Origin: Acidobacteriota bacterium
Lineage (GTDB): Bacteria > Acidobacteriota > Vicinamibacteria > Vicinamibacterales > UBA2999
Direction of reading: 5' to 3'
Length of the DNA stretch: 64,000 nucleotides
NCBI GenBank assembly: GCA_021730945.1
Contig: JAKFYH010000013.1
Coordinates: 62,001-126,000 of the forward strand
Shown: positions 42,919-47,090 of the stretch, one piece after another
How positions within the stretch are numbered: the first letter of the stretch is position 1
Layout of the letters: each line of letters begins with the position of its first letter
Translations under genes and position numbers: made by a program
Notes under the pieces: model-generated
Databases searched by the model: none
What the model was told of the DNA's origin: nothing
Seen by the model: the letters and a program-made list of their open reading frames with translations, nothing else

Positions 42919-45350
<2,432 letters not shown>

Positions 45351-45435
45351 GAATCTGGTGCTGTTACTGGAGGCGAATCGGGTGCCGGTGTCAGAATAAC
45401 CCAAGGCCCAATCGCGATTGCGCTAACATCAGGTG

Positions 45436-45669
45436 ATGAAATCCAAGACGAGCCTCGGCGAGGTGAAGAGAGTCCTGGTGGCAGTGAAGACCGGCGTGCG
45501 CGATTTCTGGAAGGGCTACCTGCTCAATCCCGTCTCCTGTTGAGGGATGGATCCAGTGTCCTGGGAGCAGGACACACGCCGGCGGTGGGACGAGCAGCAA
45601 CGAGCGCTCCCGCCGTCAACCAAGCCGGGCACCGAAGGGCGAACCGGCGAGACCTTGCCCGCGGCCTAG
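45436..45669 (+). CDS. Candidate 77-residue selenoprotein with a Cys-Sec motif
   Basis: Two open stretches join in one frame if UGA at 45541-45543 is selenocysteine: 35 residues (MKSKTSLGEVKRVL...DFWKGYLLNPVSC), Sec36, then GMDPVSWEQDTRRRWDEQQ and a Pro/Gly/Thr tail to a TAG at 45667. Cys35-Sec36 would form a redox pair. Third-position GC is high in both halves (roughly 28 of 34 and 30 of 39 codons), as in real genes here. The downstream half has no properly spaced ribosome site (GAGGG touches its ATG), arguing against two separate peptides. A perfect SECIS-like hairpin follows the UGA. No signal peptide, so cytosolic. I do not recognise the family. Its 3' end overlaps the convergent nitronate monooxygenase stop by 4 nt. 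The weak point is the poor start region (CAGGTG before ATG). Confidence 0.55.
45541..45575 (+). promoter_or_regulatory. UGA codon and SECIS-like hairpin of the small selenoprotein
   Basis: After UGA (45541-45543) come 20 nt, then the loop GGAG (45564-45567) of a perfect 8-bp stem, GTGTCCTG (45556-45563) with CAGGACAC (45568-45575). Spacing, perfect stem and first-position G match the redoxin element at 30252-30285. It could instead be a terminator for the convergent gene, but there is no T-run. Confidence 0.6.
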
Positions 45670-47090
45670 GGTACCGGCAGGGCCGAGAGCAGCGTGTCGA
45701 CCACGTCGGCGGCGGCGTAGTCGGTGGCTCCCGGCCGCACAAATCGCGCGATGCCCGCCAGGTCGTCGCCGGCTGTGACGATGCCGTGTTCGATGTACCT
45801 GCCGGCGCGCACCTGAGGATAGCCGGCAGTGGCGACCAGTGCATTGCAGATGCACTTGCGGCCCATCGTCGCGCTCACGTCGCCGCCCTTTGCGACGTAG
45901 ACGTTGACCGGTTCGGCCGCGCATCGGAAGCCAACGGAGCCGTCGCCCTCCCGGTAGGCTTCGCGTAGAAAACCAAGATCGCAAATGCGGGGCCGTGCCG
46001 CGTAGACTGCCGGATCCGAGATCGTGCCGTCGAGCCGGGCCACCTTGAACGGAAAGCCGGTGGGCGACGCCGACGGATCGGTGAAGACGCTGGCGCGTCC
46101 GTCGATGGCCTGTCGCAGCAGGGCCTGGCGGTAGTCGGGGCGCAGACCCGATTCGGCGCAGAAGGCAAAAGCGGTTCCCACTTGCACGCCCGCCGCCCCC
46201 ATCTCGAGCGCCTCGCGTAAACGCTCGGGGGTACCGTAGCCGCCGGCCAACCAGAACGGCAGGCCGAGCGCGCGCAACCGGGCCAGGTCCACCCGATCAC
46301 GCTCGCCGTAGTGAGGCTCGCCCTCGGGAGTCAGCTGCAACTTGCCGCGCGGCGGGGCGTTGTGGCCGCCGGCAGTCGCGCCCTCGACGACAAACCCGTC
46401 GACGCGGCCGTTGGCCCGCCGCACCAGGGTCTGCGCCAGAACCTCCGAGGCGATGATGGCGAGGAAGGCCGGCCGCTTGAGCGGGGCACCGGTGCCGATC
46501 GCGAGGTCGCGCGGGTCGAACCCGACCGTCACCTCGTCGCCGGGGCGGGCACCGGTGGTCGTCACCGGGTACGAGGCCGCCTCGTGCATGGCCAGGCGGT
46601 CGAGCGCGCCGGGAATCTTGAGGGGAATGCCGGCCCCCATAAGCACGTAGTCCACACCCGCGAGCATCGCGCCGTAGAGCGATGGCAAGTGGGGGATCTG
46701 GATCTTCTCCAGGTAGTTGATCCCGATCAGACCGCCGTGGCCCTCGCGCGCCAGCCAGACCTCGACAAAGTTGGCGACCACGCAGAGTTCGAGGAACGCG
46801 CGCGGCGGGTCGAGCGACTGCAGCGGCAAGGACCGGTACGACTGTCCCGGTTGCCGGCCACCGGGAATGAAACAGCGGCTCGACACCCGTTCGGCCATGG
46901 CCCGGTTGGGAAAGGCCTGCAAGCCGCGCCGCATGTGGCCGCCCGGATCGCCGTCCTGGAGCCGGCGGGCCAGGATCTGGTCGAGCGCCGTCCCGCTCAC
47001 GACGCCCAGTTGGCCCAAGCGGGAGACCGCGCGCGCCAGCCGCCAGTCCGACACGGCCACCCCCATTCCGCCCTGGATGATCACGGGCAT
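45666..47090 (-). CDS. Nitronate monooxygenase-family FMN enzyme
   Basis: A 474-residue TIM-barrel flavoenzyme of the 2-nitropropane dioxygenase family, which oxidises alkyl nitronates; some members are enoyl reductases. N-terminal PVIIQGGMGVAVSDWRLA is the FMN-barrel opening; GGHNAPPRG near 255 has the catalytic-type His after the Gly pair; PFWLAGGYGTPERL and GAAGVQVGTAFAF form the phosphate site. It is longer than usual (about 330), with insertions and an extra C-terminal segment including RKCICNALVATAGYPQVR. Its ATG overlaps the hemerythrin stop (TGATG), so they form an operon. Confidence 0.85.
   Translation of the reverse strand: MPVIIQGGMGVAVSDWRLARAVSRLGQLGVVSGTALDQILARRLQDGDPGGHMRRGLQAFPNRAMAERVSSRCFIPGGRQPGQSYRSLPLQSLDPPRAFLELCVVANFVEVWLAREGHGGLIGINYLEKIQIPHLPSLYGAMLAGVDYVLMGAGIPLKIPGALDRLAMHEAASYPVTTTGARPGDEVTVGFDPRDLAIGTGAPLKRPAFLAIIASEVLAQTLVRRANGRVDGFVVEGATAGGHNAPPRGKLQLTPEGEPHYGERDRVDLARLRALGLPFWLAGGYGTPERLREALEMGAAGVQVGTAFAFCAESGLRPDYRQALLRQAIDGRASVFTDPSASPTGFPFKVARLDGTISDPAVYAARPRICDLGFLREAYREGDGSVGFRCAAEPVNVYVAKGGDVSATMGRKCICNALVATAGYPQVRAGRYIEHGIVTAGDDLAGIARFVRPGATDYAAADVVDTLLSALPVP

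Follow-up and report, generated by a model that had tools for sequence, protein, structure and literature searches.

Ordinary annotation misses selenoprotein genes because UGA resembles a stop codon. The locus described here raises the question of whether one such UGA, lying in a short frame of the window (the whole 64,000-nucleotide stretch of acidobacterial DNA that was analysed), ends a peptide or encodes selenocysteine (Sec). The preliminary description of this DNA had proposed an undescribed selenoprotein of 77 residues, built from two high-GC3 stretches joined by the UGA. Its coordinates (Table 1) proved exact, with the U at residue 36, and GC3 is 0.83 on the 5′ side of the UGA and 0.80 on the 3′ side, at a window GC of 0.68. 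The frame occupies the gap between two minus-strand ORFs, one UvrA-like and the other nitronate-monooxygenase-like, and overlaps the end of the latter by four bases. On the evidence set out below it is considered a genuine Sec-inserting small selenoprotein gene, with a probability of about 0.93.

Table 1. Positions of the candidate selenoprotein gene, its elements and the adjoining ORFs in the window
Feature	Position	Strand	Basis or remark
-10-like TAACAT	45424..45429	+	Predicted promoter of a leaderless mRNA; 6 nt 5′ of the ATG
Selenoprotein CDS	45436..45669	+	77 residues with UGA as Sec; stop TAG included
Start codon ATG	45436	+	
UGA codon, Sec36	45541..45543	+	Homologue comparison; TGC (Cys) in three homologues
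ATG directly 3′ of the UGA	45547	+	
SECIS hairpin, 8-bp stem	45556..45575	+	Fold, homologue pairing, published bSECIS constraints
5′ stem strand, GTGTCCTG	45556..45563	+	
Loop, GGAG	45564..45567	+	
3′ stem strand, CAGGACAC	45568..45575	+	
Stop codon TAG	45667..45669	+	
UvrA-like ORF, 829 aa	42915..45404	-	TIGR00630, E 1.3e-205; 685.5 bits, below the cut-off of 729.8
Nitronate-monooxygenase-like ORF	45666..47090	-	Matches PF03060

Among 99 relatives searched, 17 genomes had matches, at 18 places in total; an in-frame TGA was present at 17 of the 18, and in each of these loci (L002-L018) it occupies the same residue. The profile search, run over 193 genomes of the class, yielded 35 places in 34 genomes, of which 30 were classified, five places without a fetched locus being left out. 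Accepted UGA-type members number 24 (L002-L018, L045-L049, L052 and L055), three places are Cys-type (L050, L051 and L053), and the others are the probable L054, the doubtful L056 and the chance match L057. L054 (G054:C325:6605-6748) reads GCUGMD, has at the same distance a hairpin that differs in sequence, and is probably a 25th UGA-type member. L056 (G022) reads GCAGDP with no stop, and is doubtful because its E-values (7.7e-4 and 1.4e-3) lie where chance matches also occurred. The alignment used for the second profile search, six of whose places likewise had no fetched locus and were left out, already held the three Cys-type members and L055, so that the E-values for these are circular, as is that of L056 in the search of the phylum sample. 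This sample (396 genomes) gave ten genomes at E<=0.001, namely eight known ones and two outside the class, whose matches (L135 and L136; E 2.9e-4 and 4.5e-4) were rejected as chance after reading. The matches L019, L057, L125 and L126 were likewise read and rejected.

A DNA pattern of the UGA plus hairpin, run over contigs of 84,980 species, returned 20 stretches, all on contigs equal in length to those of known members and none lying elsewhere; since the pattern was derived from the members themselves, their recovery carries no weight as evidence. Four of the 24 members are absent from these stretches: that of the window's own genome, which was perhaps left out of the scan, those of G005 and G061, because their letters break the pattern, and that of G062, which fits the pattern yet was not returned. 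Nineteen stretches are titled Acidobacteria, Acidobacteriota or Acidobacterium, and one is titled Acidimicrobiia. The latter contig (L094, VFZL01000012.1), which has the length of G086:C12, holds the acidobacterial family, and genome G086 belongs to the same order; the title may be a mislabel. Members of the family were seen solely in one acidobacterial order, probably Vicinamibacterales.

Conserved protein lies on both sides of the UGA in the UGA-type members, with 22-47 residues 3′ of Sec in the 24. The core alignment (A4) has 20 rows, comprising 16 UGA-type members, the three Cys-type members and the doubtful L056; near-copies and truncated or divergent UGA-type sequences (L008-L010, L013, L015, L049, L052 and L055) were omitted. 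Its consensus is xxLxxFxxxLRQxWxGYxxxxxGx-U/C-GxDPVAWEQDxRAR, in which one G (G27 of the window protein), Sec/Cys36 and P40 are invariant, and 14 of 14 residues around the Sec place are aligned without gaps in most rows. Codon 36 of the Cys-type members is followed by SGDPIAWE, GGDPIAWE or AGDPAAVE. The Cys-type core of L050 (667-1644, minus strand; genome G137) is the N-terminus of an ORF continuing into a DUF4159 protein (PF13709), and the frame of L051 runs on for 66 residues; both extensions were cut off for the alignment. The preliminary description had called for a search for homologues with U replaced by C and for coding beyond the UGA: the replacement was found three times, always as TGC, and the frame is kept by the 24 members with UGA and the three with Cys. 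Differences at the codon positions 3′ of the UGA (0.173, 0.125 and 0.183) are by themselves no sign of protein selection, since every position is under constraint from the RNA; it is the Cys-type members that reveal protein selection in this part. Compared in this way, every accepted member has Sec or Cys at place 36, and the UGA behaves as a sense codon.

Immediately before Sec, the 24 UGA-type members have C (14), T (7), S (2) or G (1). A Cys at this place is optional, and a conserved Cys-Sec pair is therefore not supported. The CU redox site proposed for residues 35-36 in the preliminary description accordingly lacks support as a family feature and could apply to a subset at most, in which a Cys-Sec bond could form where Cys35 is present.

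In bacteria, SelB bound to a hairpin delivers Sec-tRNA(UCA) to the UGA. A perfect 8-bp stem with a G-first loop 20 nt after the UGA had been reported at this locus and is indeed present, the stem beginning 12 nt from the UGA. According to PMC13188914, a bSECIS element has a loop of 3-9 nt, a stem of 4-16 bp, a distance of 16-37 nt from the UGA, a G among the first two loop bases and an MFE <= -7.5 kcal/mol. The window hairpin, with its 4-nt loop beginning with G, its 8-bp stem and its distance of 20 nt, lies within these limits, and the fold of the 42 nt 3′ of the UGA, at -16.1, is within the energy limit.

Taken alone, the hairpin does not exceed what chance would give. Perfect 8-bp stems of bSECIS geometry occur behind 2 of the 692 TGA of the window's plus strand and behind 10 of 798 on the minus strand, or 12 of 1490 on both, and five mononucleotide shuffles gave 0-3 such hairpins per 548-595 TGA. 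The 61-nt fold has a z of -1.02, with 32 of 200 shuffles folding equally well. It is the comparison of homologues that raises the hairpin above chance. Across the 24 distinct UGA-type sequences 94.8% of 192 stem cells are paired, against 22.9-56.8% in registers shifted by 1-3; four of the eight stem pairs have changed on both sides (9 cells), and the covariation score of 0.190 was matched by none of 500 shuffles. Two pairs changed at once in L048 (G-C to A-U and G-C to C-G), and a U-A pair became C-G in L016. Eight of the 24 sequences have pair 4 open and two have pair 8 open, and the minimum-energy folds of L015 and L045 differ from the family stem. The hairpin does not form in the three Cys-type members. 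Judged by these substitutions, the hairpin 3′ of the UGA is a maintained RNA structure; SelB bound to it would supply Sec-tRNA(UCA) at the UGA, letting the ribosome continue to the TAG. An Rfam search of 45300-45800 gave no match to the hairpin; its two matches lie 3′ of the gene and are weak (E 0.61 and 4.1).

The components selA, selB, selD and selC, whose presence the preliminary description had left to be asked, were all found in the window's genome. They comprise SelA, a SelB of 634 aa (TIGR00475, above cut-off), SelD and a tRNA-Sec with the anticodon TCA; the Rfam tRNA-Sec model alone is unspecific, because tRNA-Ser also matched it, and it hit 14 of 14 controls, five above cut-off. The SelD gene (L137, G000:C34:15882-16808) itself contains one in-frame TGA at its Sec place, in an SCAGU loop, and would be a second gene of this genome using UGA as Sec.

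SelA occurs in 22 of the 24 UGA-type genomes. One UGA-type genome (G039) has SelB without SelA. Another (G011), 93% complete, carries a member with the UGA and an intact hairpin (L055; G011:C43:7055-7183) but yielded no SelA and no SelB above cut-off; the assembly may have a gap there, or the gene may be a relic that outlasted the machinery. Among the three Cys-type genomes, which are 66, 81 and 88% complete, SelA was found in none and an above-cut-off SelB in none, and the same holds for the doubtful G022. For SelA in UGA-type versus Cys-type genomes Fisher's test gives p 0.0034, a value that ignores relatedness and includes incomplete Cys-type genomes; the background is a SelA match, in some cases weak, in 81 of the 99 relatives. 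The family offers a natural experiment, with UGA where the Sec machinery is present and Cys where the machinery was not found.

If the UGA were an ordinary stop, the product would be a 35-residue peptide ending in Cys, and the frame behind it would be due to chance or to a separate 40-codon ORF. The number of window TGA codons followed by comparable hairpins agrees with this, as does the ATG right behind the UGA, but the frame is kept there in 24 UGA-type members, the three members with a Cys codon keep it without a hairpin, and the residues around the place align gap-free in most rows; an ordinary stop is very improbable. The UGA might also be read as something other than Sec, for example as Trp by the read-through that occurs in some bacteria. 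The replacement in homologues is, however, Cys in three of three cases and never Trp, and a covarying SECIS is accompanied by the whole Sec machinery, which makes this reading extremely improbable.

A Sec-inserting gene could still be a diverged member of a known family, of which KCU-star/DUF466 (YbdD-like; NF033934, PF04328) comes closest in size and in its CU motif. As its name tells, KCU-star has the CU at the C-terminus, whereas here the Sec is internal, with at least 22 residues behind it in the 24 members, and the preceding Cys is optional. The locus resembles the KCU-star row of a 2026 catalogue of prokaryotic selenoproteins in its small size and CU motif. Against the relationship, 25 members were compared with NCBIfam and none matched a model at E<=1; NF033934 falls within the NCBIfam numbering of the catalogue, and PF04328 is absent from the Pfam results. 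PF04328 was also found in none of 60 genomes of the order, the window's own included, and matched 2 of 14 controls. Membership in a known family, KCU-star included, is quite improbable.

With a real Sec-inserting gene, the family is very likely an undescribed one, within the literature library and databases searched. Matches in Pfam were confined to two unrelated families, each hit by a single member (E 0.11 and 0.12), and the sequence search of solved structures found no relative (best E 0.33). None of the 119 families and subfamilies of the 2026 catalogue could be recognised as the present one from its name, domain or motif in the part available; the catalogue prints no sequences, and the comparison is therefore by description. 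The family was not found in print in the open-access literature, nor was anything on selenoproteins together with Vicinamibacter. The absence of a nameable family thus agrees with the preliminary description, and its claim of an undescribed selenoprotein is supported, coding past the UGA and Sec machinery both being present. The locus shares with SelB/bSECIS selenoprotein genes of bacteria the in-frame UGA, the G-first-loop hairpin at 20 nt, the Sec machinery in the genome and the Cys-type homologues, but its protein fits no family model searched. An apparently undescribed selenoprotein family is hereby added from a poorly studied lineage.

AlphaFold, given 25 sequences (22 UGA-type and three Cys-type), produced a model of modest quality (mean pLDDT 80.4, pTM 0.36) with helices at 7-30 and 40-57, a Sec loop of pLDDT about 63, a loose tail and no strand. 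The moment of the first helix reaches 0.63. The predicted product has Sec36 in a loop flanked by an amphipathic helix (about 7-30) and a further helix (about 40-57). In thioredoxin-like and CxxU/UxxC selenoproteins the selenol is likewise replaced by Cys in homologues, but here there is no CxxU/UxxC in the conserved core and no strand in the model. The lone conserved selenol in a loop between helices favours redox or metal chemistry involving a partner and disfavours an obligate Cys-Sec pair. There is about an even chance that the protein is a mono-selenol (a mono-thiol in the Cys forms) acting in thiol/peroxide redox while docked on a partner protein or membrane face; the main alternative, binding of a metal or metalloid by the selenolate, appears rather unlikely. 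The full picture can be offered tentatively, at somewhat less than even odds: a new helix-Sec loop-helix family of one acidobacterial order, leaderless, with Cys in the absence of Sec machinery, whose lone docked selenol would serve redox or metal chemistry outside thioredoxin-like folds. The protein is small enough to make and assay, and the role of a lone conserved selenol on a tiny scaffold becomes testable.

The mRNA would be leaderless and often monocistronic. The preliminary description had noted that the second stretch has no properly spaced ribosome site; the sequence bears this out, but such a site is missing before the first stretch as well. A TAnnnT motif, picked after looking at the sequences, lies 5-7 nt 5′ of a possible start in 14 of the 21 UGA-type members with a listed start, against a background of 12 of 3975 ATG/GTG in the window; by script, 13 of these 14 starts are without a Shine-Dalgarno-like match.

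Neighbours were called in 20 regions with an own ORF picker. No neighbour is common to the whole family among these regions, and no function was read from them. A myo-inositol-1-phosphate synthase gene (PF07994) lies 30 nt to 6 kb away in 6 of the 20 (L060, L061 and L063-L066); these six represent two genera, and the gene is absent from the window. A UvrA-like gene adjoins the window gene, and in L067 a similar ORF is on the other side. The UvrA-like protein of the window is perhaps a UvrA paralogue, because its score is just below the NCBIfam UvrA cut-off. Two same-strand genes precede the selenoprotein gene in L069, encoding a pyridine-nucleotide-disulphide oxidoreductase and a VTT-domain protein; in L061 it follows an AMP-binding (acetyl-CoA-synthetase type) gene.
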